DNA of 40,845 bases from Chloroflexales bacterium ZM16-3 (GTDB lineage Bacteria > Chloroflexota > Chloroflexia > Chloroflexales > Chloroflexaceae). Below, piece after piece: positions 13,304 through 31,972 of this stretch. A program made the position numbers and the translations under genes. Position 1 is the first letter of the stretch. Every line of letters starts with the position of its first letter. Location of the stretch: assembly GCA_004138175.2 (NCBI GenBank), contig RYFE02000043.1, forward strand, positions 1 to 40,845, written 5' to 3'. The notes beneath the pieces are model-generated. The model did not search any database. It was not told the origin of the DNA and was given only the letters and a program-made list of their open reading frames with translations.

Positions 13304-13536
13304 GTTTCCCCCGTGCAGTTTGGCTGAGGTGACAGCGGAGCCGCCATCAAAAAGCCGCCCAGGTAGCGCATGTGGTGCGGCCAGGCAATCAAACATTGGG
13401 GATGCTGTCACCAGTGTGCCATGGGCGGGGGCGAAATCACAGGGGCTACTTCAGGAGCGCTATGGGAGGATTCGGGGAGCGTTGTGGGAGGAGTGGGGGT
13501 GTCCTCTGCGCACAGATAGATAGGTAGTGATACTTG

Positions 13537-13650
13537 GCAGTAGAGCAGAAGTAACGCTGTCACCCTGAGCGAAGCGAAGGGTCCCGGTCGGGATTCTTCG
13601 CTTCGCTCAGAATGACATGACGCTTCACAGCGTTACTTCTGCGGTATTGC
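13537..13650. mobile_element. MITE copy 1 (114 bp) with 8-bp target duplication
   Basis: Ends GCAGTAGAGCAGAAGTAACG and, reverse-complemented, GCAATACCGCAGAAGTAACG form near-perfect terminal inverted repeats; inside is a hairpin of GAGCGAAGCGAAG with CTTCGCTTCGCTC. It is flanked directly by GATACTTG at 13529-13536 and 13651-13658. It has no coding capacity. Further copies with the same ends are at 27081 and 31829. The sequence on its left (13304-13528) shows no gene. Confidence 0.88.
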
Positions 13651-13675
13651 GATACTTGATTCTACACTCCCAATC

Positions 13676-14060
13676 TGCCACGTGCAGGATTATTCTGCGC
13701 ATGTGTGGCTCTTGCTCACTTTCGCTGATCAATGCGGGGAATCGGCGCGATTGCTCTTGCGGCATGGCTCTACAGAGCCATGCTCATGTCGGCTTCAGCG
13801 AAAGTGAGCAAGAGCCACATATAGTAATCCTACCGGGGTTATGAAGCCGTCTAACCGGCTACCACTTCCTGATGCGGCGGAGGTGGAGCTTGATGATACA
13901 GGCTTCACGACCTGCGTGGGACTGCTATATGTGCAGAATAATCCTGCATGTGACAGTATATGCAGCCCATCTATGGCCATGGAAAGCTCCCTTCATCGTC
14001 ATTTGATTCTACGTGGGTCTGATGGCCGAACGGATGTTTGGATCGCCAAAAGCGCATGAG
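13676..14060. mobile_element. Nested ISL3-derived inverted repeats and a relic ISL3 left end
   Basis: Three layers are visible. (1) Perfect 25-bp arms at 13704-13728 (TGTGGCTCTTGCTCACTTTC...) and 13795-13819 enclose about 66 nt that contain a second hairpin (GCATGGCTCT / AGAGCCATGC). (2) An imperfect ~32-bp pair at 13818-13849 and 13903-13934 forms an adjoining hairpin. (3) Outer arms around TGCAGGATTATTCTGC (13684) and GCAGAATAATCCTGCA (13932). From about 13956 to 14052 the sequence resembles the 5' end of the ISL3 relic at 26745-26860; on the minus strand it starts MAIDGLHIL, like that copy's MPMDGLHVI. GGCTCTTGC termini are typical of ISL3 ends. No intact gene. Confidence 0.65.
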
Positions 14061-14114
14061 TGCTCGCGCATCCACCGCCACCACAGCCGTTGAGTCTTAT
14101 CCTTGCCCAATTCG

Positions 14115-14150
14115 TCTACTTTTTGTATAGCTCGTGCGGTGAAAAGTAGA
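14115..14150. promoter_or_regulatory. Inverted repeat upstream of the regulator promoter
   Basis: Arms TCTACTTTT (14115-14123) and AAAAGTAGA (14142-14150) lie 23 nt before the -35 box of the following promoter. It could be an operator or an old terminator. Confidence 0.4.
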
Positions 14151-14172
14151 TTAATAAATGGCGTTTTATGGC

Positions 14173-14201
14173 TTGACAATGCCCTAAACGGGCATTACAG
14201 T
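14173..14201 (+). promoter_or_regulatory. Near-consensus sigma-70 promoter with operator-like dyad
   Basis: TTGACA (14173-14178), a 17-nt spacer and TACAGT (14196-14201). The spacer is itself a dyad: AATGCCC-TAAAC-GGGCATT (14178-14184 and 14190-14196), the right position for a repressor that blocks polymerase. The leader to ATG 14357 is about 150 nt and contains GGGCTC-ACCAC-GAGCCC and TCCGCCC...GGGGCGGA pairings, so post-initiation control is possible. Confidence 0.75.
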
Positions 14202-14356
14202 GTAGAGGCATCCCAGCAACACCAATGTAATAAGCGTAGCCCGAGATCCGCCCAAAAGCCTGAGCGTTGAGACGCTGCGGGGCGGACGATGGGCTCACCA
14301 CGAGCCCCCCGGCACACTGTGGCGCCGAGGCCTATAGCGCATACCCAAAGACGCGT

Positions 14357-15874
14357 ATGATAACCCTGACCACCCAACAGCGCGATGTGCTCCTCCTCCT
14401 GCTTCACGCCGATGCGCCCCTTGCGGCGACCGAGATCGGCCAGCGGGTTGAGCTGAAGCCGCGCCAGGTACACTATATTCTGGGCGCCGTGCGCGAATGG
14501 CTCGCCCGCCGTGGCGTCGCCCTCCAGAACATCCCCGGCGTCGGCGCGCAGGTGCGCTGCAGCCCTGAGCAGCGCCAGCATTTGCTGGACGAACTGCGGG
14601 CTTACTCGCGGCTCCAGCTGGTGCTGAGCGCCGACCAGCGCCAGCAGATCCTGCTCTTCACCATGCTCACCGCCGCCGAGCCGCTCGTGATCCAGCGGCT
14701 CCAGGAGACGCTGACGGTCTCGCGCAGCACCGTGCTCAAGGACATGGACGCGACGGCCACTTGGCTCGCCCGCTTTGACCTGGATCTGGTGCGTCGGCAG
14801 CACTCCGGCTCCTGGATTGAGGGGCCTGAGCTGGCTACCCGGCAGGCACTGACCGCCCTGCTCTGGGGCGATATGTCCAGCGGGCGACCGATCTTCGCCA
14901 TCCAGTACGGCGACGGGCTAACCTGCGCGCTGCTCTCTGACGCCGATCTGCTCGCCGCCCTGGCCCCCGTGCGTGATCTAGTCGAGGGCTGCGATTTCGA
15001 CACCCTGATCGCCCGCGTCTCGTGGGCCGAGGCCGACCTCGGCTGGCACTTCAGCGATGAGTCGGTGCTCTACCTGGCACTGGCGCTCTTCGTCCAGGGC
15101 TGGCGGATCAGGGTCGGCCGGTACGTGGGCTGTGATCCTGAGATGATCGCCTGGCTGAGCGGCCACGCCGTCTGGCCGACGGCCGAGGTCCTCGTGTCGG
15201 ACTACGCTCTGGATGTTCTGGCCATCCAGAGCGAGATCGCCGCCGCCGCAATGCTCCTGCTGGCCTGCCCCCACGAGGGCGGCGTCGCCATACCCGAGCT
15301 GCACGACATGATCGAGGCCGCCCTCGACCAGATCGCCCTGGCCTACGCGAACGACACCTTGCGCGCCGATGAGCCCCTGCGCGACGGGCTGCGCTCACAG
15401 ATCTGCACCGCCGCCCTGGCCAGCCGCTTCGGCATCTGGCTGCCCCCGCGCTCGTCCGACGACCTCCCTGCGGACGAGGGCGACATCGAGCGGTGCCTGA
15501 CCGACCAGATCGACGATCTCTTCTTCGCCCATACGGGCGCGCGGCTCGCGGATCGCCACCGCCATAGCCTGACCCTGCTACTCCACGCGGCGGCGACCCG
15601 CGCCCGCACATCCCGCGCCCGGCGCGTGCTGGTGATCTGCCCGAGCGGCATGGCCACCACCCAGCTGCTCATCGCCCGGCTGCGCTCGCGCTTCCCGCGC
15701 CACAGCAGCTACGAGGTCGTCCCGCTGCGCCAGCTCGGCGCCGCGCAGATCGCCTCGGCCGACCTGATCATCTCGACCATTCCGCTCTCTTTAGACGCGT
15801 CGACGCCGGTGGTCCAGGTTCACCCAAGCCTCACGCCCGCCGATGTGGCCGCCCTCGACCCCTGGCTAGACTAA
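14357..15874 (+). CDS. PRD-domain transcriptional regulator (MtlR/BglG-like) of the PTS operon
   Basis: 505 residues from ATG 14357 (an in-frame start at 14267 lies in the leader). Order: N-terminal winged HTH ([36 protein letters not shown]), a second HTH ([21 protein letters not shown]), PRD region(s) with histidines ([20 protein letters not shown]; later a [13 protein letters not shown] helix), and a C-terminal EIIB-like domain with C428 in [15 protein letters not shown]. No EIIA domain is visible, so it is shorter than full MtlR. Such proteins are DNA-binding activators whose PRDs are phosphorylated by HPr or EIIB. It lies directly upstream of the transport genes and very probably controls them. 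The start has only a weak ribosome site. Confidence 0.88.
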
Positions 15875-15878
15875 TTTT

Positions 15879-15919
15879 TATGGTGCGGCTCGGCGGCGTC
15901 GCCGCCGAGCCGCACCATA
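15879..15919. terminator. 19-bp perfect palindrome between regulator and EIIC gene
   Basis: TATGGTGCGGCTCGGCGGC, a 3-nt loop, and the exact complement, starting 4 nt after the regulator's stop. There is no following T-run, so it may attenuate rather than end transcription. Downstream (15920-16068) are two more hairpins (GGGGCGGC-GGA-GCCGCCCC; CGCCTCG-GTGCACG-CGAGGCG) and a C10 run; no convincing promoter for the EIIC gene was found there. Confidence 0.6.
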
Positions 15920-16083
15920 AAGAACATGTGGGGCGGCGGAGCCGCCCCAAACCCCCACTGGGGTGTGATAGAGGAGTCCCGCCTCGGTGCACGCGAGGCG
16001 CGCTCATAGATGGGGTGCAGCGTCCGGCCGGCACCACCCCCCCCCGGATTTTGGACAATGACGTTACCGGAGGAGATGTTCAC

Positions 16084-17154
16084 ATGCGCGAGCGAATTCA
16101 GCAGTTCGGCAGCTTCCTGGCTGCGATGGTTATTCCCAACATCGGCGCGTTTATCGCGTGGGGCCTGATCACCGCCCTGTTCATCCCCACCGGCTGGCTG
16201 CCGAACGAGGGCTTCGAGAAGCTCGTCGGGCCGATGATCGTCTACCTGCTGCCCATCCTGATCGGCTACACCGGCGGCAAGCTGATCTACGACACGCGCG
16301 GCGGCGTGGTGGGCGCGGCGGCCACCATGGGCGTGATCATCGGTGCCGACATCCCCATGTTCCTGGGCGCGATGGTCATGGGGCCGATCGGCGGCTACCT
16401 GATCATGAAGATCGACGAGGCCCTTGAGGAGAAGATCCCGGTTGGCTTCGAGATGCTGGTGAACAACTTCACGGCCGGCTTCCTGGCGGTCGGTCTGGTG
16501 CTGGTCGCCAACGTCCTGATCGGCCCGATCGTTGAGGCATTCAGTACGACCCTCGGGGCCGGCGTGCAGCTGCTGATCGATATGCGGCTGCTGCCCCTGG
16601 CCGACCTGATCATCGAGCCGGCCAAGGTGCTCTTCCTCAACAACGCGATCAACCACGGCATCCTGTCGCCCCTGGGCGTCGCCGAGGTGCAGGAGAACGG
16701 CAAGGCCATCCACTTCCTGCTCGAGTCGAACCCCGGCCCCGGCCTGGGCCTGCTGATGGCCTACTGGTTCGCCGGCGAGGGCGACCTGAAGAGCACCGCC
16801 CCCGGCGCGGCAATCATCCACTTTCTGGGCGGCATCCACGAGATCTACTTCCCCTACGTGCTGGCCCACCCGATCATGATCCTGGCGATGTGGGCGGGCG
16901 GCATGGTCGCCGACTTCTGGTTCGTGATCTTCGACGCTGGCCTGGTGGCCACGCCCTCGCCCGGCTCGATCTTCGCCTACCTGGCGGTGACGCCCCGCGG
17001 CTCCTACTTCGCGGTGTTCGGCGGGGTGGTGGTCGGCGCGCTGGCATCCTTTGCGGTCGGCACCATCATCCTGCGGCTCTCCCCGGTGCGCCGCACGGCC
17101 GAAGAGGCCGAGGCCGATGTCGTGGCGATGAAGGGCCGGCCCCTGGCGGTATAA
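16084..17154 (+). CDS. mtlA: PTS mannitol-type permease, EIIC subunit
   Basis: 356 residues, GGAGGA 9 nt before ATG 16084. A polytopic membrane protein with the mannitol-class EIIC marks: [19 protein letters not shown] near the start, [15 protein letters not shown], and [15 protein letters not shown] at residues 249-263, which holds the conserved GIHE substrate/phosphotransfer motif. It stops after the EIIC domain; in enteric MtlA the EIIB and EIIA domains follow in one chain, here they are separate genes just downstream. It translocates and phosphorylates a hexitol with EIIB. Mannitol is the default family substrate, but the neighbouring dehydrogenase and kinase make another hexitol possible. 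Confidence 0.92.
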
Positions 17155-17158
17155 CCAT

Positions 17159-17217
17159 AGGGGCGCGACGCGCCCCTCCAAGAAAGGGAGGGGCGCGTCG
17201 CGCCCCTCCAAGAAAGG
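17159..17217. repeat. Two tandem 29-nt palindrome units
   Basis: AGGGGCGCG(A/T)CGCGCCCCT followed by CCAAGAAAGG occurs twice with a 30-nt period (17159 and 17189), differing by one base. Each unit contains a GGGGCGCG/CGCGCCCC hairpin. The second unit's AAAGG provides the ribosome site of the EIIB gene. Confidence 0.8.
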
Positions 17218-17226
17218 ATCCTCGTC

Positions 17227-17547
17227 ATGACAACATCAATTCCGGCGGCAGAGGTCAAAACCATCGTCTTCGCCTGCGAGGCCGGCATGGGCTCAAGCCT
17301 GATGGGCGTGAGCGCGCTGAAGAAGAAGATCAAGGCGGCCGGCCTGAGCGTCGAGGTGGTCCATAAGGCGGTGCGCTCCATCCCGACCGGCACCCGGCTG
17401 GTGGTGACGCACAAGGGCCTGGCGGCCCAGGCCCACACCCGCGCCCCCGATGCGGTGGTGATCGCCTTCAGCGCCTTCCTGAACGACCCGGTCTTCGATA
17501 AGCTGGTGGCGGCCCTCAAGGCCGGCGATCCGATTGAGGGGGTCTAG
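17227..17547 (+). CDS. PTS mannitol-type EIIB subunit
   Basis: 106 residues. TIVFACEAGMGSSLMG carries the phospho-cysteine C17 followed by the AGMGSS phosphate loop characteristic of mannitol EIIB. The C-terminal half (HKAVRSIPTGTRLVVTHKGL) fits the rest of the Rossmann-like domain. It accepts phosphate from EIIA H62 (next gene) and passes it to the substrate bound by EIIC. Ribosome site AAAGGA 9 nt upstream. The length equals the EIIB domain of fused MtlA proteins, so this is an unfused subunit, not a fragment. Confidence 0.92.
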   Translation: MTTSIPAAEVKTIVFACEAGMGSSLMGVSALKKKIKAAGLSVEVVHKAVRSIPTGTRLVVTHKGLAAQAHTRAPDAVVIAFSAFLNDPVFDKLVAALKAGDPIEGV

Positions 17548-17550
17548 GAC

Positions 17551-17994
17551 ATGGCGATCATCTCTACCGACAGGGTGCGCCTGGGGGCGGTCGCCGCCGA
17601 TAAGGCCGACGCCATCCGCCAGGCCGGCGAGCTGCTGGTGGCCGGCGGCTGCGTTGAGGCGGCCTACGTGGACGGCATGCTCGGCCGCGAGACGGTGATG
17701 TCCACCTACCTCGGCAACGGCATCTCCATCCCCCACGGCCAGTTCGAGGACCAGGGCTACATCAAGAGCACCGGCATCTCGGTGCTCCAGGTGCCGGCCG
17801 GCGTCGAGTGGGAGCCCGGCGAGCTGGCCTACCTGATCGTCGGCATCGCCGCCGTGGGCGACGAGCACATCGGGGTGATGGCGAACCTCGCCGAGGTGAT
17901 CGAGGACCCGGCGGCGGCCGAGGATCTGGTGCGTGCCACCAGTCCCCAGGAGATCGTGGGCCGACTGAGCCGCGAGGCGGCGCCCGACGCGTAG
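17551..17994 (+). CDS. mtlF: PTS mannitol-type EIIA subunit
   Basis: 147 residues, 3 nt after the EIIB stop; GAGGGGG (17536-17542) inside the end of the EIIB gene serves as ribosome site, so translation is coupled. The phosphorylation site is STYLGNGISIPHG with H62, and the C-terminal helix ends LVRATSPQEIVGRLS. This is a standard mannitol/fructose-class EIIA that takes phosphate from HPr (fused gene downstream). Length and motif order match single-domain MtlF. Confidence 0.92.
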   Translation: MAIISTDRVRLGAVAADKADAIRQAGELLVAGGCVEAAYVDGMLGRETVMSTYLGNGISIPHGQFEDQGYIKSTGISVLQVPAGVEWEPGELAYLIVGIAAVGDEHIGVMANLAEVIEDPAAAEDLVRATSPQEIVGRLSREAAPDA

Positions 17995-18053
17995 GGGCGA
18001 CCCCGTGTGGTCGCCCGAGGCTGGGCTGGACGACCACACGAGGTCGCCCCTAT
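17991..18053. repeat. 23-bp imperfect inverted repeat
   Basis: Arms GTAGGGGCGACCCCGTGTGG... (17991-18013) and the complementary segment at 18031-18053 match at 21 of 23 positions around a 17-nt loop. It overlaps the EIIA stop and ends 22 nt before the HPr-EI start. It may dampen downstream expression. Confidence 0.75.
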
Positions 18054-18074
18054 GGTTATCTGATAGGTCATGCA

Positions 18075-20066
18075 ATGAAGCAGATAGATCTGATCATCCA
18101 GAACCGCACCGGCCTGCACGCCCGCCCGGCGCGCGTGCTGGTCGATACGGCCAAGCAGTTCACCTCGGCGGTGCGGCTGCGCCACGGGGCCAAGGCGGCC
18201 AACGCGAAGAGCCTGATCTCGGTGCTGGCCCTCGGCGTCACCAGCGGCGGCGCGGTGGTGCTTGAGGTGGACGGGGCCGACGAGGATCTGGCCGCCGACA
18301 CGCTCTGCGCGGCGGTGGCCGATGGCCTCGGCGAGGGGGCGCACACTAAGGTACCTGCGCCCTCCGCCCCTGCCCCCGCCTCTCCGTCGGCCGTCGGGGA
18401 GCTGCACGGCGTCGCCGCCGCCCCTGGGATCGCCATCGGCCCAACCTTCCGCCTGCGCCGGGCCGCCGTCCAGGTTCACGATTACTCTTCGGGCGCGACG
18501 CTGGAGAGCGAGCGCCTGCGCCGGGCACTGGCCGACGCGGCCGGCCAGCTGGTGGCCCTGCGTGAGCAAGTGCTCCAGCGCGCCGGCCCCGAGGAGGCGG
18601 CGATCTTCGATGTCCACCACGAGCTGATCGCCGACGCCGAGCTGCACGCCGATGTGTTCGCTCGCATCGACGCCGGCCAGAGCGCCGCCGCCGCCTGGCA
18701 CGCTGCCACGGTCGCGGCCGCCGATGTTATGGCCGCCCTGCCCGACCCGACCCTGGCCGGGCGCGCGGCCGACCTACGCGACGCCGGCGAGCGCGTGCTG
18801 CGCCTGCTCAGCGGCGACGCCGCGCCCAGCGCCGAGCTGCCGCCCGAGCCGGTGATCCTGCTCGCCTACGACCTCAGCCCCTCCGAGACGGCCGCCCTCG
18901 ACCCGCAGCGCGTCCTGGGCTTCTGCACCGCCGTGGGCGGGCCGAACGCCCACGCCGCCATCCTGGCCCGCGCCCTCGGCCTGCCGGCGATCGTCAGCGC
19001 CGGGCCGGCCATCCTCGACCTGGAGGACGGCACGCCGGCCATCCTCGATGGGGCCACCGGCTCCCTGCTGACCAGGCCCGGCCGCGATGCCATGGACGAG
19101 GCCCGCGATCGTCAGCGCCGGGCCACGGACGCCCGCCGCGCCGCCCTGGAGTCCGCCGCGACGCCCGCCATCACTACCGACGGCCACCGGGTGGAGGTGG
19201 CGGCCAACATCGGCAGCGCCGAGGACGCCCGTCGCGCGGTGGAGTCCGGCGCCGAGGCGGTGGGCCTGCTGCGCTCCGAGTTCTTGTTTCTCGACCGCGA
19301 GCAGGCGCCCTCCGAGGCGGAGCAGCGCGCCGTCTACGCCGAGATCCTGGCGGCTATGGGCGGGCGGCCGGTTGTGCTGCGCACCCTCGACATCGGCGGC
19401 GATAAGCCGCTGCCCTACCTGAGTCTGCCCGCCGAGGAGAACCCCTTCCTGGGCGAGCGCGGCATCCGGCTCTGCCAGGCTCACCCGTACCTGCTTGAGC
19501 AGCAGCTCAGGGCGGCCCTGTCGGCCGCGTCCAGCGGCGAGCTGCGGATCATGTTCCCCATGGTCAGCGATATCGCTGAGCTGCGGGCCGCCCGCGCCGC
19601 CGTCGAGCGCATCCGCGCCGAGCTAGGCGCACCCGCCGTCCAGGTCGGGATCATGGTCGAGGTGCCCTCTGCCGCGCTCATGGCCGACGCCCTGGCCGCC
19701 GAGTGTGACTTCTTCAGCGTCGGGACGAACGACCTGACCCAGTACACCATGGCGATCGACCGCACCCACCCCACCCTGGCCGCCCGCGCCGACGGCCTGC
19801 ACCCCGCCGTGCTGCGCCTGATCGACCTCACCGTGAAGGCCGCCCACGCCGCCGGCCGCTGGGTGGGCGTCTGCGGCGAGCTGGGGGCCGACCCGGTCGC
19901 CGTGCCGATCCTGATCGGGCTGGGGGTGGACGAGCTGAGCGTCAGCGCGCCGGCCATCCCGTCGGTCAAGGCCCAGGTCCGCGACCTGAGCATGGAGCAG
20001 TGCAAGGAGCGCGCCCGCGCCGCCCTGGCCTGCGCCACGGCGAGCGAGGTGCGGTCGAAGATGTAA
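18075..20066 (+). CDS. Fused HPr-enzyme I, general PTS phosphocarrier/kinase
   Basis: 663 residues from ATG 18075; an open extension to 17808 overlaps the EIIA gene and is rejected. HPr (residues 1-90) has H15 in NRTGLHARPAR and a serine at 46 (NAKSLISV), the position used for HPr-kinase control. An Ala/Pro linker follows, then enzyme I: N-terminal helical/swivel domain with the phospho-histidine H293 in GGPNAHAAILAR (usual GG-TSH-AI), the PEP-binding barrel GLLRSEFLF, VLRTLDIGGDKPLPY, EENPFLGERGIRLC, SVGTNDLTQYTMAIDR and GVCGELGAD. It moves phosphate from PEP to EIIA. A separate general PTS locus is not needed if this is expressed. No GAF domain. Confidence 0.93.
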   Translation: MKQIDLIIQNRTGLHARPARVLVDTAKQFTSAVRLRHGAKAANAKSLISVLALGVTSGGAVVLEVDGADEDLAADTLCAAVADGLGEGAHTKVPAPSAPAPASPSAVGELHGVAAAPGIAIGPTFRLRRAAVQVHDYSSGATLESERLRRALADAAGQLVALREQVLQRAGPEEAAIFDVHHELIADAELHADVFARIDAGQSAAAAWHAATVAAADVMAALPDPTLAGRAADLRDAGERVLRLLSGDAAPSAELPPEPVILLAYDLSPSETAALDPQRVLGFCTAVGGPNAHAAILARALGLPAIVSAGPAILDLEDGTPAILDGATGSLLTRPGRDAMDEARDRQRRATDARRAALESAATPAITTDGHRVEVAANIGSAEDARRAVESGAEAVGLLRSEFLFLDREQAPSEAEQRAVYAEILAAMGGRPVVLRTLDIGGDKPLPYLSLPAEENPFLGERGIRLCQAHPYLLEQQLRAALSAASSGELRIMFPMVSDIAELRAARAAVERIRAELGAPAVQVGIMVEVPSAALMADALAAECDFFSVGTNDLTQYTMAIDRTHPTLAARADGLHPAVLRLIDLTVKAAHAAGRWVGVCGELGADPVAVPILIGLGVDELSVSAPAIPSVKAQVRDLSMEQCKERARAALACATASEVRSKM

Positions 20067-20111
20067 TGGGTAGGTTGGGGCTGCGGCTTAGCCGTAGCCC
20101 CAACCTACCCA
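20067..20111. repeat. 22-bp near-perfect palindrome
   Basis: TGGGTAGGTTGGGGCTGCGG... (20067-20088) pairs with 20090-20111 with a single mismatch and a one-base centre. It fills the gap between the HPr-EI stop and the dehydrogenase's ribosome site (AGGAG 20121-20125). Confidence 0.8.
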
Positions 20112-20131
20112 TGAACCCATAGGAGTAGCAT

Positions 20132-21868
20132 ATGAGTCGCGATACGACCTACCGCAGCCTGGGCGCGCCCGCGCCCGCCAGCTGCCTGGCCTGGAACATG
20201 TACGGCCCCGGCGTCGAGCAGATCGGCCGCGCGGGCGCGCCCGAGCAGGTGTCGGTGGACGAGCCCGGCCCCGGCCAGCTGCTCGTGCGAGTCGATGCCG
20301 TTGGCATGTGCTTCTCCGACGTCAAGCTCATCCAGCAGGGCGGAAAGCACCCCAAGCTCTATAACCGCGACCTGGCAAACGACCCGACCCGCCTTGGCCA
20401 CGAGGTGTCCATGACCATCGTGCGGGTCGGCGAGCAGCTGCGCGGGCAGTTCGCGCCCGGCCAGCGCTTCGCCATCCAGCCCGACATCTATGTGGGCGGG
20501 CGCAGCACGGCCTACGGCTACACCATCCCCGGCGGCCTCATCCAGTACCACCTGGTCGGCCCCGAGGTGCTTGCCGCCGACGACGGCGCCTATGTGCTGC
20601 CGGTTGATGATCGTATGGGCTACGCCGAGACCGCCCTGACCGAGCCCTGGGCCTGCGTGGAGGCGGCCTACACCCAGCGCCGCCGCCTGGAGCCGAGCCC
20701 CGGCGGCACCATGTGGATCGTCGGCCGGCCCGGCGACATGGCCGAGTACAGCTTCAGCGCGGGCCTGGACGCCCCGGCGACGATCGTGCTCACCGACGCG
20801 CCGCCATCCATGGCCGGGCTGGCCGCCACGACGGGGGCGAGCGTGGTCGTGCGCGACGGCGTTGGCCCCGATGGCTACGCCGCCCTGCGCGACGAGCTGA
20901 CTGGGGGCCGCGGCTTCGACGACATCGTCCTGCTCGACCCGCGCTCGGCCGAGGCGGTGGGCGCGGCGGCCCGCGTGGCCACCCACCGGGGCACCGTGGC
21001 CATGGTTGGAAAAACCCCGCTGGACGGCCCGGCCCAGATCGACCTGGGGCGCATCCACTACGACTACATCGCCTACCTGGGCACGAGCGGCCCCGACGTC
21101 GCGGCGGCCTACGGCGCGGCGCGCAATCGCTGCGAGCTGCGCCCCGGCGGCCTAGCCGTCTTCGTTGGCGCGGGCGGGCCGATGGGCCAGATGCACGTGC
21201 AGCGGGCGATCGAGCTGCCCCACGGCCCGGCCACGATCATCGCCACCGACCTGAGCGACGCCCGGCTAGAGGCGATCGCCAGGCGCTTCACGCCGCTGGC
21301 CGAGGCCAACGACCGTCGGCTGCTGCTGATCAACCCGGCTCGCGATGGTGCCGGATCGCTGGAGGCCCTGGTGTCCCAGGAGAGCGACGGGGCCGGTGCC
21401 GACGACGTGGTGGTGAGCGTGCCGGCCGCCGGGCTCATGGCCGACTCGGCCCGCCTGCTCGGCCCCGACGGCATGCTGGTGCTCTTCGCCGGTGTGCCCA
21501 ACGGCACCATGGCCCCGCTCGATCTGAGCAATGTGTATATGCACAACGCCCAGTTCACCGGCACCTCCGGCTCGGCTCTGGCCGACCAGGCCCACGTGAT
21601 CGCTAAGACGGTGGCCGGCGAGCTGTCACCCAACCGCTCGGTGGCCGCCGTGGGAGGGATCGAGGCCGCCCGCGAGGGCGTGGCGGCGATGATGGAGGGC
21701 CGCTACCCCGGCAAGGTCGTCATCTTCCCACAGCTGAGCGGCCTGCCGCTCCAGAGCGTCGAGGATCTGGCCGCCAGCCACCCGGCCATCGCCGCCGCCC
21801 TCGGCCCGGACGGCAGCTGGAGCGCCGAGGCCGAGCGGGCGCTGATCGAGGAGTTCTGGCGGCCATGA
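20132..21868 (+). CDS. Long zinc-type medium-chain dehydrogenase, probable hexitol-phosphate dehydrogenase
   Basis: 578 residues, far longer than the usual ~350. The N-terminal GroES-like catalytic domain has GMCFSDVKLIQQGGKHP (cysteine ligand) and LGHEVSM (GHE); the four-cysteine structural-zinc loop is absent. Two Rossmann-like segments follow: a degenerate one near residue 191 (TMWIVGRPGDMAEYS) and a better one near 345 (VFVGAGGPMGQMHVQRAIE). The C-terminal ~60 residues are helical. AGGAG lies 7 nt upstream and the stop overlaps the kinase start. From position, it probably oxidises the phosphorylated hexitol delivered by the PTS to a ketose phosphate; resemblance to L-sorbose-1-phosphate reductase-type enzymes is possible. 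The substrate is inference. Confidence 0.75.
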   Translation: MSRDTTYRSLGAPAPASCLAWNMYGPGVEQIGRAGAPEQVSVDEPGPGQLLVRVDAVGMCFSDVKLIQQGGKHPKLYNRDLANDPTRLGHEVSMTIVRVGEQLRGQFAPGQRFAIQPDIYVGGRSTAYGYTIPGGLIQYHLVGPEVLAADDGAYVLPVDDRMGYAETALTEPWACVEAAYTQRRRLEPSPGGTMWIVGRPGDMAEYSFSAGLDAPATIVLTDAPPSMAGLAATTGASVVVRDGVGPDGYAALRDELTGGRGFDDIVLLDPRSAEAVGAAARVATHRGTVAMVGKTPLDGPAQIDLGRIHYDYIAYLGTSGPDVAAAYGAARNRCELRPGGLAVFVGAGGPMGQMHVQRAIELPHGPATIIATDLSDARLEAIARRFTPLAEANDRRLLLINPARDGAGSLEALVSQESDGAGADDVVVSVPAAGLMADSARLLGPDGMLVLFAGVPNGTMAPLDLSNVYMHNAQFTGTSGSALADQAHVIAKTVAGELSPNRSVAAVGGIEAAREGVAAMMEGRYPGKVVIFPQLSGLPLQSVEDLAASHPAIAAALGPDGSWSAEAERALIEEFWRP

Positions 21869-22828: not shown

Positions 22829-22975
22829 TGGGTTGATGGCGGGTTGGATCTGCGCAACGGCGAGACGCTGCTGATCGACTATGGCACCTGGCATGGCGGA
22901 CATAGCTCGCCGTGGGTATTTCACGACAGCAACGAGAACGGCCTGCTCGACCCGGACGAGGTCTTTGAGTGGTAA
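22829..22975 (+). pseudogene. C-terminal fragment of an unidentified protein
   Basis: After a TGA the frame reads WVDGGLDLRNGETLLIDYG, then TWHGGHSSPWVFHDSNENG and ends LLDPDEVFEW. DSNENGLLDPDEVF resembles a single calcium-binding EF-hand-like loop. It has no start codon and no upstream homologous part; the preceding ~30 nt separate it from the kinase. Probably a gene tail left by rearrangement. Confidence 0.45.
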
Positions 22976-22999
22976 GACGCGCAGTGATACGAATGGAGC

Positions 23000-23286: not shown

Positions 23287-23379
23287 GGAGAGCACTAAAA
23301 AGTCGGGGGGGGTGGGTATGGATGGGCGCAGACATGGCACGAAGGTATGAGGTATACCCCCGACTTTTTAGTGCTCTCC
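23287..23379. mobile_element. 93-bp hairpin element with 23-bp perfect terminal repeats
   Basis: GGAGAGCACTAAAAAGTCGG... (23287-23309) and its exact complement at 23357-23379 frame 47 nt that are themselves partly paired (GGGTAT / ATACCC). There are no obvious flanking direct repeats. It cuts the integrase fragment. It is unlike the GCAATACCGC MITE or the ISL3 ends, so it represents another family. 23380-23437 contains only a short CAGTTG/CAACTG hairpin before katG's stop. Confidence 0.75.
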
Positions 23380-23437
23380 AGGTATGAGCGAACGTCTCTG
23401 CAGTTGTCCGGCAACTGAGGTCAGCCAGCGCACACGA

Positions 23438-25684
<2,247 letters not shown>

Positions 25685-25689
25685 CTAAC

Positions 25690-26124
25690 TTAGGCTTGGC
25701 AACTGGGACACGTACCCCAGTAAATGACCTCTGCCTCATCAATCACGTACCCGTGGTTATCATCTGCGGCCAGGCAAGGTGCTTCGCCTGTGGCACAGTC
25801 GGTATCGACCAGGGAACCACACCCTCGACACACGAGGTGGTGATGATTGTCGACCCGATCTTCGTAACGAGCGGCCGACCCGGCAGGTTGAATCCGACGG
25901 ATCAGGTTGTGCTCAGACAGCACATGCAGGGCGTCGTAGACGGCTTGACGGGAGATGGCACCGATCTCCGCGCGAACCTTCTCACAGATCTCGTCTGCCA
26001 TGGCGTGCGGAGAGGCCTGCACCGCCCGGTAGACGGCAAGCCGCTGTGCCGTCACATGAAGCCCCGCCTTCCGCAGCGCTTCAGAAACATCAGTTTGATG
26101 AGGCTTTGTATGTGATGAGTTCAT
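25690..26124 (-). CDS. Fur-family peroxide-responsive regulator (PerR/FurA-like)
   Basis: 144 residues from ATG 26124; an in-frame TTG at 26145 adds seven residues but lies inside the promoter. Winged helix: [19 protein letters not shown] and [19 protein letters not shown]; metal-binding domain [12 protein letters not shown] with CxxC, and a second CPSC pair at the C-terminus forming the structural zinc site. The HHH and nearby Asp/Glu residues could form the regulatory metal site of PerR. Linkage to katG mirrors furA-katG of actinobacteria, and autoregulation of both genes is likely. PerR versus Fur or Zur cannot be settled by eye. Confidence 0.88.
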
Positions 26125-26130
26125 TCGTTT

Positions 26131-26162
26131 TATATAATCCGCCAAATTCTAGATCTTGTCAA
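26131..26162 (-). promoter_or_regulatory. Promoter of the perR-katG unit, probably giving a leaderless transcript
   Basis: On the minus strand TTGACA (26157-26162) precedes GATTAT (26134-26139, 17-nt spacer) or TATATA (26131-26136, 20 nt). The -10 ends only 6-9 nt before ATG 26124 and there is no ribosome site, so transcription should begin at or within a few bases of the start codon. The AT-rich -10 would overlap a Fur-type box. Confidence 0.6.
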
Positions 26163-26199
26163 GATTTAGCTCTTAGACAAGGTTTCAGAGGGGCCGGTT

Positions 26200-26870
26200 T
26201 TAAATGATGGTGCCGCGCTCGATGTCGATCAGGATGGTGCCATAGGTCTGGCCTTTGCGCCGCGCCCAGTCATCCACACCCAGGATGCGCGGGGTGGGTG
26301 CATCAGGCATCTCGGTGCGGCGCACGAGTCGGAGGAGCGTGTCGCGGCTGGCCGCGTGATCGAGATCCTCGGCCAAGCGCTGGCCAGCGGCCCCGCCCAA
26401 GGCGACCCCAATGCGCTGCTGCTGCGCCGCAAAGCGCGCGGTGCGGCGTGCCCAAGGGCGGGCAACCTGCGGCAGGCGCTCACAAAAAATCTGACGCGAG
26501 CAGGTTGCACTGGAGCACGTGCACTTGCGCACATGCAACCGCACGCGAACGCCCACATCGGCCCACGGCAGATCGGCCAGAGTCCGGGTGTAGGTGCTAT
26601 GCACGCGCAGGGACGCAGCTGCACACCTCGGACAGGTCGGTGCCACTTGGGTCGAGGTCACCTTCAAGGTTACGGTGCGGCGCTGCTCGTCTGCCACAAC
26701 CCGGTCGACACGCAGATCGGTCTGGCTCGGCAGGAGGAAACTGGTGATCACATGCAACCCATCCATCGGCATCGGACGCTCCTTTCATCGTCGTTCGGCT
26801 CCACCTGGGTATGACGACCGAAAGGGTGTTCGGGATCACCAAAAGTGCGCAAGAGCCACTTGACAAGATA
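26200..26870 (-). pseudogene. N-terminal third of an ISL3-family transposase with its left end
   Basis: From ATG 26772: MPMDGLHVITSFLLP, a zinc-finger module (CPRCAAASLRVHSTYTRTL; CTCSSATCSRQIFCERLP), an HTH-like RIGVALGGAAGQRLAE, and the start of the DDE domain RILGVDDWARRKGQ with the first catalytic Asp. It stops at 26200 (IERGTII) where a full protein would have ~350 more residues. The upstream ~95 nt (to 26870) hold GGCTCTTGCGCACTTTTGG, which resembles ISL3 termini. 26866-27080 contains no convincing gene. Confidence 0.88.
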
Positions 26871-27080
26871 CCGCTGGCGAACTCTGCATGAGCGCCCTTC
26901 TCTCAAACAGCTTGTACTCCCCCACAGGGTGGTTGCGGTTTTTCGCAGAGAAGCGCTGTGGCGACCTCGCCTGCTGGAGCAGGAGGCATGAGGCGCGACT
27001 TTTCGACGCAAGACGACCAGAAAAACGCAGCGTGCCGCTCCGTTGAGGTTCGCCAGCGGTATCTTGACAACTGTAATTTA

Positions 27081-27154
27081 GCAATACCGCAGAAGTAACG
27101 CTGTGAAGCGTCCTGTCATCGCTCAGGGTGACAGCGTTACTTCTGCTCTACTGC
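27081..27154. mobile_element. MITE copy 2 (74 bp, internally deleted) with 8-bp target duplication
   Basis: Same ends as the 13537 copy, in opposite orientation: GCAATACCGCAGAAGTAACG at the left and ...TTCTGCTCTACTGC at the right. The central GAAGCGAAG hairpin is lost. Direct repeats GTAATTTA at 27073-27080 and 27155-27162 flank it exactly. Confidence 0.88.
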
Positions 27155-27178
27155 GTAATTTACAACCGGTAACGCGGC

Positions 27179-27655
27179 TCAGCGGGGAACCTCTACTGAA
27201 GTCGCGCCTTTCGTCAGCGCGCGCTCTGTGTGTAGGTAGCGGTAGACTGTTGCTTTGGAAATCTGGTAGTCATGCATCAGCGTGCGAATAAGCACGCCTT
27301 GCTGGCGCCGCTCTTGAAGCTCGGCTACCTGTGCTGGCGTAAGCTGCTTGCTGCGGCCGAACATCACGCCCCGAGCCTTGGCGAGATGGATGCCGTCCAT
27401 CTGGCGCTCGGCCCGCAGCTCGGTCTCGAACTGGGCGATGGCGCCGAGCATGTGGAAGAGCAGCCGGCCCGTGGCGTCGTTGGTGGAGATCTGCTGGTCA
27501 AGCACCTGGAGGTGGACGCCCTTCCGCCGCAACTCCTCGGCAATCTGGCAGAGGTGGAGCGTCGAGCGGGCCAGGCGATCCAATCGGGTGACGACGAGGG
27601 TGTCGTCTTCGGCTCTCCCGCACTTCCCGTGCAGATGGTGCCGATCAGGATGCAC
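27179..27655 (-). pseudogene. Serine recombinase lacking its N-terminus
   Basis: The usable homology starts near 27620: GRAEDDTLVVTRLDRLARST, QIAEELRRKGVHLQVLDQQI, FHMLGAIAQFETELRAERQ, then the HTH LTPAQVAELQERRQQGVLI and ISKATVYRYLHTERAL. The first ~50 residues with the catalytic serine (the YARVS region) are absent. The N-terminal side runs straight into the end of the ISL3 transposase, in another frame, so an ISL3-associated deletion probably removed it. Confidence 0.85.
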
Positions 27656-29318
27656 GGGCTAACACACGTTGGCGGAGCAGGTCGAATTTGGCACATCCAT
27701 ACATGCTCCGCTTGATCAGCTTGAGCCGATTCACCTGCCCCTCCACCTGGCCATTGCTATAGGGTACGGAAAGGGCGGCCACCATCGCCGCCTTGTCGCG
27801 CTCCAATCCTGCCACAAAGCCCTGGATCTCGGGAATACCACTGGCCGCCCCACGGGTGAGCCAAGCATCGAATGTGCTCGCCTGCCGCGTGCGTACCATC
27901 TGGATGAAGTCCTGCGCCAACTGATAGGCCGTCGCCACGATGGGAGCCGCGTGGCACAATCGTTCCAGAATGCGCTGATCATCCGCCTCCAGTTCTTTGG
28001 GGCGGCGCACCAGGAGCCATGCCGCCTGGCGTGCCGACAGACGGCGTTGGGGCGCCGACGGTGGTGTCCGTGTTGGCACCGGGGGGCGGCCACGACGCCG
28101 CGTACGCGGCGTCGTGGCCGGATCTGCGGCAGGAACCAGCTGCCGGTGCTGGGCGACCCAGCGCGAGACCAGCGCGGGCGATCCGGTGTATCGGTGCACG
28201 TCCCGCAGGTTCCGCCAGAGCTGCATGGCGTTATCTTAGCCTGCAGCAAGCTGCTGTTCGAGATAGGGGATGAAGGGGTCGAGTTTGCTGCGCCCAGCGC
28301 GGCGGGTGCCCCGCTCGGGAAACGGTTCCGCCACCGCGAACTGGCGCACGGTTTTGCGGCTGAGCTGGAGCTGTTTGGCAATTGCCCGCATGCGCATCCC
28401 TTGTGCCAGCAGTTCCTGCACCGCCGTATAGCGCGCATGCCGCCGCGTCCGCCAGTCCTGGCTCGCCTGTGCGGTCTTGGTCAGCGAGGGTTCGGGAGGC
28501 ACCTCTGGTGGAGGAAGTGCTGGTGGAGCCTCCGATACCGGACATGGCGCGAGTGATGGGGTGGGCATCACCGGGCGGTGTCTGGCAGCGGCGCGTCCAC
28601 TGTCTCGGGTGATGGGCTTGGCTTCGTCGTGGCGGCCTGGAGCGCATCTTGATGCCGTTCGAGCAGACGTTGGAGCATCTCGCGCACGTTCTGGAGCAGG
28701 TGAAAGCGGTTAGCAACCTGGATCGCATCAGGTGCCCCACGGCTGGCCCCATCGGCATATTCGCCCGAGCGGTCGCGGGTGATGACCTCGACGCCCGGAT
28801 GCGCCGCCAGCCACTGTGCCACCACCTCGGCAGATCGTTCTGGCACGAGGTCGATGGGCTGGTGCGTCTCCAGATCTACAAAGATCGTGCCATAGACCTG
28901 GCCTTTCCGCAGCGCGAAGTCATCGATGCCGAGGCAACGCGGCGTGGCGCTCTCGCCAGCGGGGTTCTGACGCGCCAGACAGAGCAAGGTGTCCGCGCTC
29001 ACCGCTATCCAGGCCGATCTGGCGGTGCTCCGCCCACTGTCGGGTCGTGCGGCGCGCGTAGGGCCGGATCAGTTCGGGTACGGGTTCACTGAAGGTGGTG
29101 CGCGGACAGCTCAGGTTGTCGCAGCGGAAGCGCCGAACATGGAGGTGCAGTTGCACCGGCACCTGGGCAAGCGGGAGATCGGCTAATCGACGCTGGTAGT
29201 AACTATGAACCCGCTGGGTCGGCATCTGACATGTGGGGCAATCGATGATCGTCGCCGTGGTCTGGAGGTCAGCGACGACGCCATCAGGGGCAATAGCGAC
29301 TGCGGTCAGATGGAGCAC
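27645..29318 (-). pseudogene. Degenerate ISL3-family transposase in four blocks
   Basis: Read from 29318 downward. Block 1 (29318-29010): zinc finger CPTCQMPTQRVHSYYQRRL and CDNLSCPRTTFSEPVPEL. Block 2 (29002-28568), another frame: CLGIDDFALRKGQVYGTIF with the first DDE Asp, VITRDRSGEYADGA with the second, then ANRFHLLQNV. About 20 codons are missing between blocks 1 and 2. Block 3 (28571-28236), shifted again: Pro-rich linker and HTH MRAIAKQLQLSRKTVRQF, ending LAAG then TAA. Block 4 (28226-27645), same frame as block 3: SARQAAWLLVRRPKEL, YSNGQVEGQVNRLKLIKR with the catalytic Glu. Two frameshifts, one deletion and one nonsense codon inactivate it. Both terminal repeats are lost. Confidence 0.9.
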
Positions 29319-29320
29319 GG

Positions 29321-29690
29321 CCTGTCATCGTCTGTGACCTGCCGCCAGCCCGCAGCCCCATCCTCGCGACCGCACTGGCGGCCGCCACCCGCTGCGTGGC
29401 CCCGGTGCAGCCTGAGGATCTGGTGCTCCAGGCGCTCGCCGACCTCAGCGAGTCGTCCGCGTACGCGCAGCAGGTGAACCCGACGCTCCCCGATGTGAGC
29501 GTGCTGCGCAACCGCTACGCGCCGCGCCGCGCCGTAGATATGGTCTACGACGAGGAGCTACGCACGACGTACGCGGGCCAGCTGCTCCAAACGATTATCC
29601 CGATGCGGGCCGCTGTCCGCGAGTCGGCGGGTTTTCAGCAGAGCATGCAGCAGACGCAGTCCGGCCTGGAGCGCGCAGCACCAATCGCTC
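29321..29690 (+). pseudogene. C-terminal half of a ParA/Soj-type partition ATPase
   Basis: The open frame starts abruptly next to the ISL3 remnant: PVIVCDLPPARSPILATALA (Walker A' partner strand and switch), RCVAPVQPEDLVLQALADL, VSVLRNRYAPRRAVDMVYDE and LQTIIPMRAAVRESAGFQQS. These follow the second half of ParA in order. The N-terminal deviant Walker A is missing, and homology ends near 29670. It could be a relic of a plasmid or integrative element. No parB is visible. Confidence 0.75.
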
Positions 29691-29751
29691 GGGCGCGTTG
29701 TGCGCCATGCGAAGACGGGTCGTTACACGGGTCGTCACCAGGGGGCTGGAC

Positions 29752-30492
29752 TCAGGCGGCGGCCGACGCGCGCTCCTCCCACCGATCCGCTCGCACCCCT
29801 TTCACCAGGAGCCACACGGGGAAGGCGATCTCTGCGACGGCGATCACCAGCGCAATAATGGCGGGGGTGGTGGCATAGCTGGGGACGAACAGCAGCGCCA
29901 GGCTGTCGAACAGATAGCCGCAGGCGGCGAGGAGAAACAGGACGCCGAGCACGCGGGGGATATACCCCGACTTGTAGATCAGATAGCCAAGCAGAAATAC
30001 GTGGGGCACCAGAAAGACGATGCCGATCGTGAACCCGTAGCTGTGCGCGTCGAGGAAAAAGCGGCTGAGCGCCTCGCGTTGCCCGAGCGAGAAGCCGGCC
30101 AGTTCGCTGTCGCCGAGCAGGCGCAGCACAAAGAAGTAGTTGAGCAGGTTGACCCCGTGGATCGTGGTCATGATCAGCCGAAACACCGCCGCCGACAGCG
30201 CGAGCATCCGGCTCACGGGCGCGAAGAGGACGTACAGTATCAGCGAGAGCGCGACCTCGCTCAGCAAGACGACGAGCTCGCCGCCGAGGGCGACGCGGAG
30301 CAGCGCGCCGGTGGTGGTCGCGGGAGCGCCTCCTATGTTCAGCTGGCCGGGCACGTAGACATGGGCAACAATAGCGGCGACCGTGATGACGAGGTAGAGG
30401 GCGCCGGCGAGGCGGGCCAGGCCGAGCGGCGCGCGCCCGGCGATAGATCGGGTCGGCTGCGTGGTGCGCAGGGTGGCAGTCGTTACATTCAT
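29752..30492 (-). CDS. DUF4386 membrane protein
   Basis: 246 residues, AAGGAG 7 nt before ATG 30492. Six to seven hydrophobic segments; family-typical stretches are RLAGALYLVITVAAIVAH near the N-terminus, MTTIHGVNLLNYFFVLRLL in the middle, FFLDAHSYGFTIGIVFL and YLIYKSGYIPRVLGVLFLLA near the end. DUF4386 proteins have no established function. It is intact although surrounded by decayed mobile genes, so it is probably under selection or a recent arrival. Confidence 0.88.
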   Translation of the reverse strand: MNVTTATLRTTQPTRSIAGRAPLGLARLAGALYLVITVAAIVAHVYVPGQLNIGGAPATTTGALLRVALGGELVVLLSEVALSLILYVLFAPVSRMLALSAAVFRLIMTTIHGVNLLNYFFVLRLLGDSELAGFSLGQREALSRFFLDAHSYGFTIGIVFLVPHVFLLGYLIYKSGYIPRVLGVLFLLAACGYLFDSLALLFVPSYATTPAIIALVIAVAEIAFPVWLLVKGVRADRWEERASAAA

Positions 30493-30527
30493 CTCAACTC
30501 CTTTCCTTTGTTCATACGCCCCGTGGT

Positions 30528-30571
30528 GTGAGCCGGAGCCGACGGCGCTGGCTCACTGCACCCGTAGTATA
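30528..30571 (-). promoter_or_regulatory. Promoter/operator candidate for the DUF4386 gene
   Basis: A TATACT -10 candidate (30566-30571, minus strand) has a poor -35 partner. Just downstream, GTGAGCC (30528-30534) and GGCTCAC (30550-30556) form a dyad in the leader that could be an operator. Moderately suggestive only. Confidence 0.35.
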
Positions 30572-30744
30572 GCCGTGCGGCGCGCGGGCTTGTAGCTACG
30601 AAAGGAGGGAGAAGGGAGGGTCAGCCCGCGCCGAGCGGTGAAGCGGATAGTACGAAGGTAGGTAGTGGCTAGATCTCGCATGGTGACGCGTCTCTCCCCC
30701 ACGGGAACGCCGTACGAAATGATTGACACCTCGCCGTGTTTTGC

Positions 30745-31160
30745 TTACGCGCGGAGCGAGCGATTGTAGCGAAAGAGAAACAGCCGGAGACACACTTCAT
30801 GCATCAGATCGGTTTTTGAAAACGAGAGGGTTTTGCGCACAAACCGTGCCAGACGTTGGCGAATCGTGTTGTTAAACCGCTCACTATGGGCCGTTTCACC
30901 CGTTTCTTTGCCCACCGCTTCATGCTGGTCATCGGGGATGATCATGTGATAGGCTTCCCAAAAGTCACTAACGTGCGCTCAAGCCCCCGAAGACTGCTGC
31001 GCTCCTCATAGGCACGCAGAATCTCTTCTTTTCGTTCCTCAGGTACCCATTTGGTGCAGGATTGGCCCGGCTTTGTCGCTGGCAGGTACGTTCGCGTGTT
31101 CGCCACTACCCCGTGCTCTACGTATCTCAGCCTCGATCCATTGCGCTCGCGCCGGCTCAA
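30745..31160 (-). pseudogene. IS1-family transposase with internal deletion
   Basis: The N-terminal part reads WVPEERKEEILRAYEERSSL and RGLERT (HTH). It then jumps, with a frame change near 30960, to SDFWEAYHMIIPDDQHEAV, GKETGETAHSERFNNTIRQR and FVRKTLSFSKTDLMHEVCLR, the C-terminus of IS1-type DDE transposases. About 100 residues with the first catalytic acids are missing. No clear terminal repeats were found in 30572-30745. It overlaps the stop of the response-regulator gene by 4 nt. Confidence 0.85.
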
Positions 31161-31798
31161 TCCACGAGCCTGTGTCGCAGGGCGATCACGGCGGCCTGCG
31201 TGCGGTCTGCCACTCCCAGCTTGGCGAGAACCCCGCTCACGTAATTGCGCACGGTGCCCTCGGAGAGCGATAGCCGGGCGGCAATGTCCGTGTTCGAGAG
31301 GCCCTTTGCCAGAAAGCCCAACACCTCCCGCTCGCGCAGGCTGAGCGTCTTGCCAACCGTCGAGTCGTGTGCGACGTTTGGCTCGGCGATATGCATGAAG
31401 AGCTTGCTGGCCACCCCCGGATCGACAAAGGTCTGCCCGGCAACTGTCCCTGTGATGGCGCTGATCAATCCATCACGCGGCGTGCCCTTGAGCAGATAGC
31501 CCGAGGCACCGGCGCGGATCGCGTCGAACAGCCATTCGTCGGCGTCATAGGTCGTTAGCGCCAGGACGCGCACCGCCGGGAACCGCTCGCAGATCTTCCG
31601 GGTGGCCTGAATGCCGCTCATGCCCGGCATGTTCAGATCCATCAGGACGAGATCGGGCTGCTGCTGCTCGACGAGTGCCACCGCCTGCGCGCCGTCGCTC
31701 GCCACTCCGGTCACTTCGATCTCAGGCGCGGTGCTGAGAATGGCGCGCAGTCCCTCGCAGATAATATCCTGATCGTCGCAGATCAATACGCGAATCAT
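31157..31798 (-). CDS. NarL/FixJ-type response regulator
   Basis: 213 residues from ATG 31798 (GGAGG 8 nt upstream; a longer in-frame start at 31840 lies in the MITE). Receiver: acidic pocket CDD (D8-D9), phospho-acceptor D54 in VLMDLNMPGMSG, K104 in GYLLKGTPRDG. Output: LuxR-type HTH LSLREREVLGFLAKGLSNTD and LSLSEGTVRNYVSGVLAKLG. No histidine kinase is adjacent. It is divergent from the giant protein at 32221, whose promoter region it may control. A MITE sits 30 bp upstream of its start codon and may have replaced its promoter or cut it from a kinase gene. Confidence 0.93.
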   Translation of the reverse strand: MIRVLICDDQDIICEGLRAILSTAPEIEVTGVASDGAQAVALVEQQQPDLVLMDLNMPGMSGIQATRKICERFPAVRVLALTTYDADEWLFDAIRAGASGYLLKGTPRDGLISAITGTVAGQTFVDPGVASKLFMHIAEPNVAHDSTVGKTLSLREREVLGFLAKGLSNTDIAARLSLSEGTVRNYVSGVLAKLGVADRTQAAVIALRHRLVD

Positions 31799-31828
31799 AG
31801 GCCGGCCTCCGCTGTATAGCCAGGAATC

Positions 31829-31942
31829 GCAGTAGCGCAAAAGTCACCCTGCACGGTGTTCGGTCATTCTGAGCGAAGCGAAGAATCCCGGCCGGGACGC
31901 TTCGCTTCGCTCAGCGTGACAGGGCGAGTTTTGCGGTATTGC
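31829..31942. mobile_element. MITE copy 3 (114 bp) with 8-bp target duplication
   Basis: Ends GCAGTAGCGCAAAAGTC and, on the other strand, GCAATACCGCAAAACTCG are close to those of copies 1 and 2; the central GAGCGAAGCGAAG / CTTCGCTTCGCTC hairpin is complete. Direct repeats CAGGAATC occur at 31821-31828 and 31943-31950. Confidence 0.9.
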
Positions 31943-31972
31943 CAGGAATCATAGCTCAGACCTCCAGTTGCA

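Follow-up and report, generated by a model that had tools for sequence, protein, structure and literature searches.

The question raised by this locus is what moves a family of short non-coding elements, and where the hairpin that they enclose comes from. The locus is a stretch of 40,845 nucleotides (the window) from Chloroflexales bacterium ZM16-3; it is contig C66 of the 6.27-Mb draft genome (G000) and holds three miniature inverted-repeat transposable elements (MITEs). We conclude that these are very probably two-part MITEs, in which ends of the insertion sequence (IS) type, belonging to an IS256/Mutator-like transposase, enclose a separate core resembling repetitive extragenic palindromes (REPs). 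Two things are new here: a partner IS is identified for the MITE family, and the core is modular, the same REP lying inside several MITEs with unrelated ends.

An initial annotation of the window had described the elements as independent insertions of one MITE family, and this is borne out: each of the three (Table 1) has inverted ends that coincide exactly with a perfect 8-bp flanking repeat, and the three repeats differ from one another. With zero mismatches allowed, the end motif GCARTANNGCANAA occurs in the window solely at the six ends of these copies. The core GAGCGAAGCGAAG had been claimed for all three; it is present twice each in copies 1 and 3 and absent from copy 2, which by sequence comparison is missing about 40 bp of the core of the 114-bp copies. 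No complete partner IS lies inside the window, as had been stated, and an Rfam scan of the window returned nothing at the gathering score.

The three copies are real, but the family comprises hundreds of copies genome-wide rather than three, roughly 220-285 in ZM16-3. Contigs C1 and C40 (751 kb together) hold 34 paired elements, which scales to about 284 for the genome. The motif GCARTANNGCANAA at up to one mismatch gave 303 + 304 matches (607) versus 32 + 26 (58) for a reversed control, and a 24-base end pattern at up to two mismatches gave 213 + 221 versus 0. Duplications were counted on 60 pairs of facing ends 60-260 bp apart, picked without regard to their flanks in 1.16 Mb (19%) of the genome. 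Perfect 8-bp duplications flank 48 of these pairs, 10 have one mismatch and 2 are poor (2 and 4 mismatches); a cross-pairing control gave 8 identical octamers in 3540. In the parts not picked for matches (C1, C40 and the window, n = 35) the corresponding counts were 29, 5 and 1. A selected search paired 63 elements and left 51 end motifs unpaired, which are decayed copies, IS ends and chance matches.

The targets are octamers of the form S-WWWWWW-S. Among pairs selected for having duplications, on which the insertion models given below also rest, there are 49 distinct perfect duplications; 40 of them begin and end with G or C, and A+T makes up 82-87% at the inner positions, compared with 44% in the 50-bp flanks, in a genome sample of 65% G+C. 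The MITEs are non-coding and have terminal inverted repeats. Most measure 114 bp, within a range of 74-246 bp whose upper end consists of nested pairs, and there are size clusters at 114-115, 123 and 177-181 bp. Identical sequences make up 11 of 33 of the 114-bp copies and some movement is therefore recent. The 177-181-bp MITEs combine the same ends with a different palindromic core. This second core (GGCTGAAGCCGC / AGGCCGC type, e.g. C2:123810-123986) was also seen elsewhere in the sample; it may be another enclosed repeat, and some of the outside copies are decayed MITEs. Two 114-bp MITEs (L072 1797-1910 and L074 1011-1124) lie in or at the end of DDE_Tnp_1 transposase matches and have perfect duplications, CAAGAAAC and CAGAAAAC. 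A different element of 132 bp at G000:C37:83839-83970 (L051) has ends GGTAGTGTCATTAGGTTTTCGCCAC and a perfect 8-bp duplication GGAGTTGG; its ends are, as shown, without a hairpin core.

The full IS with matching termini that the initial annotation had suggested looking for was found outside the window; it is 1.9 kb long and has the same 24-28-bp ends; by eye, the agreement with the MITE ends extends over 24 bp at one terminus and about 28 bp at the other. A search of the ZM16-3 genome for three transposase families (DDE_Tnp_1, Transposase_mut and ISL3) covered 14 loci, and a transposase was flanked by MITE-type ends only in L078 and L079; the two Transposase_mut matches on contigs C40 and C76 sit between such ends. 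The uncultured Oscillochloris KT5_bin-278, apparently genome G037 and a genus-mate of ZM16-3, holds a complete IS of 1899 bp (L092) with a perfect duplication, CTAAAACT, and an ATG-started open reading frame (ORF) of 603 aa. A second complete IS (L125, G037:C207) measures 1912 bp and has the duplication CTAATTAT. A third copy, in genome G040 (L127), has 1655 bp, the duplication GTATTGCC and an open 519-aa frame; it is a deletion derivative, because the region of the second Asp and the CxxH motif is absent. An IS256/Mutator-like ORF lies between MITE-type ends in five cases (C40 and C76 of ZM16-3, G037 twice, and G040), and both G037 copies and the G040 copy carry 8-bp duplications. Three further IS copies in ZM16-3 are short 5' remnants (C39, C44 and C40:188921). 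Two IS copies are bordered by the same GTAAAAG heptamer repeat (G000:C39:28110-28124 and the right flank of C40:304995).

Other candidates for the partner IS were rejected. The ends at L072, L074, L081, L082 and L084 belong to complete short MITEs that lie next to or within the transposase match, L083 holds one end of a short MITE, and the remaining loci have none or lone weak matches; for the other Transposase_mut matches, L076 and L077, no MITE-type ends lie within the locus examined. Two longer end-bounded segments, C1:386418-387900 and C37:80835-82291, have mismatched duplications and no transposase-like ORF seen by eye.

These observations suggest how the elements could move. The outer 24-28 bp on each side would be the terminal inverted repeats of the 1.9-kb single-gene IS, and its transposase of about 603 aa, supplied in trans, would act on the GCARTANNGCANAAGTMACGCTGT ends and insert the element into AT-rich octamers bounded by G/C, duplicating 8 bp. 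The inner core is an inverted pair of TGTC-tagged REP-like stem-loops, probably a separate, phylum-wide repeat that became enclosed by these IS ends. The same REP also lies within ends of a second 8-bp-duplicating type in ZM16-3 and within other ends, one type TA-flanked, in other Chloroflexota, and may spread partly by being enclosed.

The 8-bp duplications had been called compatible with ISL3, IS66, ISAs1 or IS256-like transposases, and of the families named the IS256-like one is the nearest, with no search aimed at IS66 or ISAs1 in their own right. The Pfam Transposase_mut model matched weakly and over threshold (23.7 bits, cut-off 21), the NCBIfam IS256 model stayed far under its cut-off (27.3 against 150 bits), and the NCBIfam ISH6 model gave a local match of 24.2 bits, far under the 240 required. 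The IS256 family makes duplications of 8-9 bp and its enzymes have an Asp-Asp-Glu (DDE) triad with CxxH between the second Asp and the Glu; the ISH6 family also duplicates 8 bp, a feature shared by the elements described here. Judged by its sequence, the transposase appears to be a DDE enzyme of about 603 aa with a weak, distant relationship to IS256/Mutator. The likeness to Mutator-like elements (MULEs) consists of weak similarity over the region of the second catalytic Asp, the layout D, D, CxxH, E, and the 8-bp duplication. Unlike IS256, the protein has N-terminal C..C pairs and a Pro-rich linker (both seen by eye). Every aligned segment that spans them retains the catalytic D, D and E, apart from L127 with its deleted D2/CxxH region. 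CxxH is altered only in L122 (C to G), and the NN of NNxxE varies in L122 and L154. A sequence search of PDB gave chance-level matches only (E 0.77 and worse).

Relatives annotated as "transposase" or "ISNCY family transposase" on Nostoc and Rhodovastum plasmids share 27-32% identity and the same catalytic residues. One distant Nostoc plasmid relative (32% identity) likewise has inverted ends and an 8-bp duplication, ATCTACAC, but its terminal sequence is different (CCCTAGCTATCTAATTGG). Distant relatives were matched in two parts, and in 9 of 10 (L094, L152-L157, L122 and L123) the reading frame changes between the N- and C-terminal halves, in differing directions and in L094 also with a stop. 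This suggests programmed frameshifting or decay. The Oscillochloris transposases, in contrast, are single ORFs with the Pro-rich linker at the position of the relatives' frame change.

One alternative is that ISL3 or another IS family moved the MITEs and that the transposase between matching ends is a coincidence. ISL3 is compatible with 8-bp duplications, and an ISL3 transposase remnant adjoins copy 2. However, the ISL3-type ends in the window read GGCTCTTGC, and as the initial annotation had rightly noted they differ from the MITE ends; the GGCTCTT of ISL3 is not matched by GCARTANNGCA. Because the ends differ and a different transposase lies between matching ends, with five such cases and 8-bp duplications on three of them, ISL3 is unlikely for this family and the alternative as a whole very improbable.

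Across the order, 82 genomes were scanned for ends and transposase. Of these, 17 contain the 24-base end pattern, and in 9, all of one family, it is abundant (more than 10 per strand); transposase matches were obtained in 10. Matches of at least 57% identity, some of them short fragments, come from seven genomes (G000, G001, G003, G016, G033, G037 and G040), all of which also have MITE ends. G041 and G053 have transposase matches of 34-35% and no ends.

The unit of the core is a REP-like stem-loop, TGTC-ATTCT-GAGCGAAGCGA-AGAAT-C, and the MITE core is an inverted pair of such halves with their tags outward. The stem structure ....(((((..((...))..))))). has 5 + 2 Watson-Crick pairs, GA opposite GA and a 3-nt loop. 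At up to two mismatches the half TGTCATTCTGAGCGAAGCGAAGAATC was found in 73 of 400 Chloroflexota genomes, and its reversed control in 0. Among the matches listed, 24 of 39 rows of two-mismatch variants, from 24 genomes, are exact compensatory changes, affecting 6 of the 7 stem pairs; related copies inflate these counts, yet different pairs and genomes show different changes. No compensatory rows (0) were obtained with the structure shifted by 1-3 positions. A single half is not unusually stable alone (z -0.2 to -0.8) and therefore the case for the stem rests on covariation. Variable stems are complementary in 127 of 134 halves in the ZM16-3 sample (three versions) and in 65 of 72 in loci from other genomes. 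GCGAAGC, which forms the inner hairpin, is an extraordinarily stable DNA mini-hairpin. The accessible part of PMC10527192 describes such stable DNA hairpins and contains the string GCGAAGC.

Similar units are treated in the portion of a 2013 survey (PMC3733652) available to us, according to which no dedicated transposase is reported for CGTC-tagged REPs. Mobilisation by a broad spectrum of transposases is given there as an option, and Chloroflexi is not among the five phyla that this portion lists with CGTC repeats. Like the REPs that the same portion describes (PMC3733652), the core has a CGTC or TGTC tag and AT first and second in the stem, and occurs mostly as dimers, often of differing units; minority variants use compensatory pairs at the first two stem positions. 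Where those REPs have an unpaired CCA tail, the first base after the core stem is C in the consensus. The core differs in having GA opposite GA and the GCGAAGC inner hairpin. The REPs there have an 8-9-bp stem and a 4-5-nt loop, to which the 5 + 2 Watson-Crick pairs and 3-nt loop of the core may or may not correspond. An association with REP-associated tyrosine transposases (RAYTs) was unsupported: of 11 Y1_Tnp loci in 6 of 8 genomes, 2 have a core within 1.5 kb, and these are a GGTAGTGG-end MITE (L229) and a lone half about 0.5 kb past the match (L227). A search of a plasmid collection with the core gave two Calothrix records with short partial matches at E <= 0.1.

The core is common to elements with different ends. 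A second MITE family in ZM16-3, 104 bp long with GGTAGTGG ends (16 end matches, control 0), holds it; among 8 loci of this family the 8-bp duplication is perfect in 3, has one mismatch in 1 and fails to match in 3, and the remaining locus lacks a right end; two further perfect duplications were seen at C24:119538 and L229. The G031 copies of the core are bounded by CCAAACRAT ends, and of 20 pairings of these ends, some of which overlap, 17 are flanked by TA at either side. In G132 there are CTAGAAGTGCGGCCG-type (CTAGA) ends on both sides in 4 of 5 core-bearing loci. A 171-bp element at L162 1393-1563 (G369:C16) combines ISL3-like GGCTCT ends, a perfect duplication TCCTTTAT and the same REP core; this is a lead resting on one copy. 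At two loci in G185 the core forms inverted dimers, in both orientations, and the units in G344 and G397, tagged CGTC, GGTC or TGTC, stand singly or in clusters and have no consistent ends. An automatic search for ends and duplications around one core each at 30 loci (L159-L188) gave mostly inconsistent single matches. The 132 half-sites in the ZM16-3 sample divide into 104 that belong to paired elements, 20 to remnants of the family, 6 to the GGTAGTGG family and 2, from one locus, that are naked, with no recognisable element; the half at L227 is one more without recognisable ends, outside this sample. QMITE2 of Coxiella burnetii is comparable, being a MITE that contains a REP, there of the GTAG type; in the part of PMC10969869 at hand it is one MITE family with one REP, whereas here one REP type occurs in several MITE families with unrelated ends.

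Several points weigh against the proposed pairing of IS ends and enclosed REP. Only two intact IS copies were found, both in the relative G037, so only these two carry the link between IS and MITEs. No intact IS was seen in the ZM16-3 draft itself, where the copies are damaged: the one on C76 has a broken frame, the match on C40 starts at residue 11-12 with differing outer flanks, and neither has a matching duplication. The end-rich genomes G002, G035, G036 and G039, in 480-1200 contigs, gave no transposase match, and G034 only one of 34-38%. AlphaFold run on three sequences returned an unusable model (mean predicted local distance difference test score, pLDDT, 35.7). In the G132 elements nothing but CTAG is duplicated. 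Movement in trans, with its chemistry, and capture of the hairpin are inferred from the sequences, and for movement in trans this too weighs against the proposal.

The hairpin could instead have been original to the transposon, for example as a site for transposase binding or regulation, its presence elsewhere reflecting end-swapping or convergence. The rarity of naked cores in the genome sample speaks for this idea. It is nevertheless unlikely: the core at up to two mismatches is absent from five of six IS copies examined, L127 having one weak match with two mismatches, and the 177-181-bp MITEs put another core between the same ends. Moreover, the core is also found in genomes that lack these ends, either as inverted dimers or in units tagged CGTC or TGTC, and its stem covaries across the phylum. 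It is slightly less probable still that the elements are kept for a function in RNA or DNA, as terminator, mRNA stabiliser or attenuator, with transposition incidental. As RNA they fold very stably (z -6.8 to -11), they are mostly intergenic, with both flanks outside crude gene calls in 26 of 37, and copy 3 lies immediately upstream of a gene for a response regulator, whose longest ORF on the minus strand is 31157-31840. Yet any palindrome folds well, and the scatter with precise duplications, the identical copies and the nested or abutting insertions point to recent transposition, with two copies in or at other transposase genes (L072 and L074). Beyond the two-part MITEs themselves, a wider reading is that a transposase-less REP of the CGTC type spreads through Chloroflexota by repeated enclosure between unrelated transposon ends; we regard its chances as evenly balanced. 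The enclosing end types would be IS256/Mutator-like with 8-bp duplications, a second 8-bp type, TA-flanked, CTAG and perhaps ISL3-like.

Copies of the family also abut one another. End-to-end junctions within 30 nt were found at 13 loci in ZM16-3, 9 with a gap of exactly 8 (the others 7, 15, 16 and 20), and both junctions in G037 have a gap of 8; the gaps at the six junctions matched in G036, G039 and G040 are 0, 1, 12 or 25. These counts are lower bounds because the search pattern was strict. One explanation is that the transposase is guided to the ends of existing copies, producing an element-8 bp-element arrangement. The 8-bp gaps fit this idea, as do four pairs on C1 and C40, where 0.18 would be expected from sequence alone and 0.67 from intergenic DNA alone (C66 included), and two of these pairs join a copy to the transposase-start end of an IS (C40:303192 and C40:188921); a third junction with such an end, at C39:28125, has a gap of 15. 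A model of octamer preference expects 1.7 abutting pairs genome-wide for 300 insertions, but an intergenic target model based on crude gene calls already expects about 5.7 against the 9 found, and none of the junctions in G036, G039 and G040 has a gap of 8. Duplications are indeed re-used, though for much of this special targeting may be unnecessary. Since the intergenic target model accounts for a good share of the abutting pairs, such targeting is kept only as a rival, and a somewhat doubtful one.

Table 1. Features of the three MITE copies in the window.
Feature	Position	Strand
8-bp target duplication GATACTTG, left of copy 1	13529..13536	.
MITE copy 1, 114 bp, GCAATACC-end first on minus strand	13537..13650	-
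REP-like half TGTCACCCTGAGCGAAGCGAAGGGTC, copy 1	13558..13583	+
REP-like half TGTCATTCTGAGCGAAGCGAAGAATC, copy 1	13592..13617	-
8-bp target duplication GATACTTG, right of copy 1	13651..13658	.
8-bp target duplication GTAATTTA, left of copy 2	27073..27080	.
MITE copy 2, 74 bp, both ends intact, without about 40 bp of the hairpin core	27081..27154	+
8-bp target duplication GTAATTTA, right of copy 2	27155..27162	.
8-bp target duplication CAGGAATC, left of copy 3	31821..31828	.
MITE copy 3, 114 bp	31829..31942	-
REP-like half GGTCATTCTGAGCGAAGCGAAGAATC, copy 3	31862..31887	+
REP-like half TGTCACGCTGAGCGAAGCGAAGCGTC, copy 3	31896..31921	-
8-bp target duplication CAGGAATC, right of copy 3	31943..31950	.

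Two neighbours of the copies were also seen in the window. A 110-bp palindromic element at 13707-13816, 56 bp from copy 1, has ISL3-type ends GGCTCTTGCTCACTTTCGCTGA on both sides and no matching duplication. The ISL3 remnant that adjoins copy 2 (27645-29002, minus strand) is a transposase split into separate frames.

A literature search of titles and abstract openings, outside subscription journals, found no paper naming the MITE family or the shared core. An abundant MITE family is now linked to a transposase, with its target defined, which makes the transposition system testable. If the REP does spread by such repeated enclosure, "MITE core" and "MITE ends" would be independently evolving modules. 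Such modular MITEs would offer a concrete route for the mobilisation of REPs by a broad spectrum of transposases, the option named in the consulted part of PMC3733652, and would bear on how CGTC-tagged REPs, reported without a transposase of their own, could spread.

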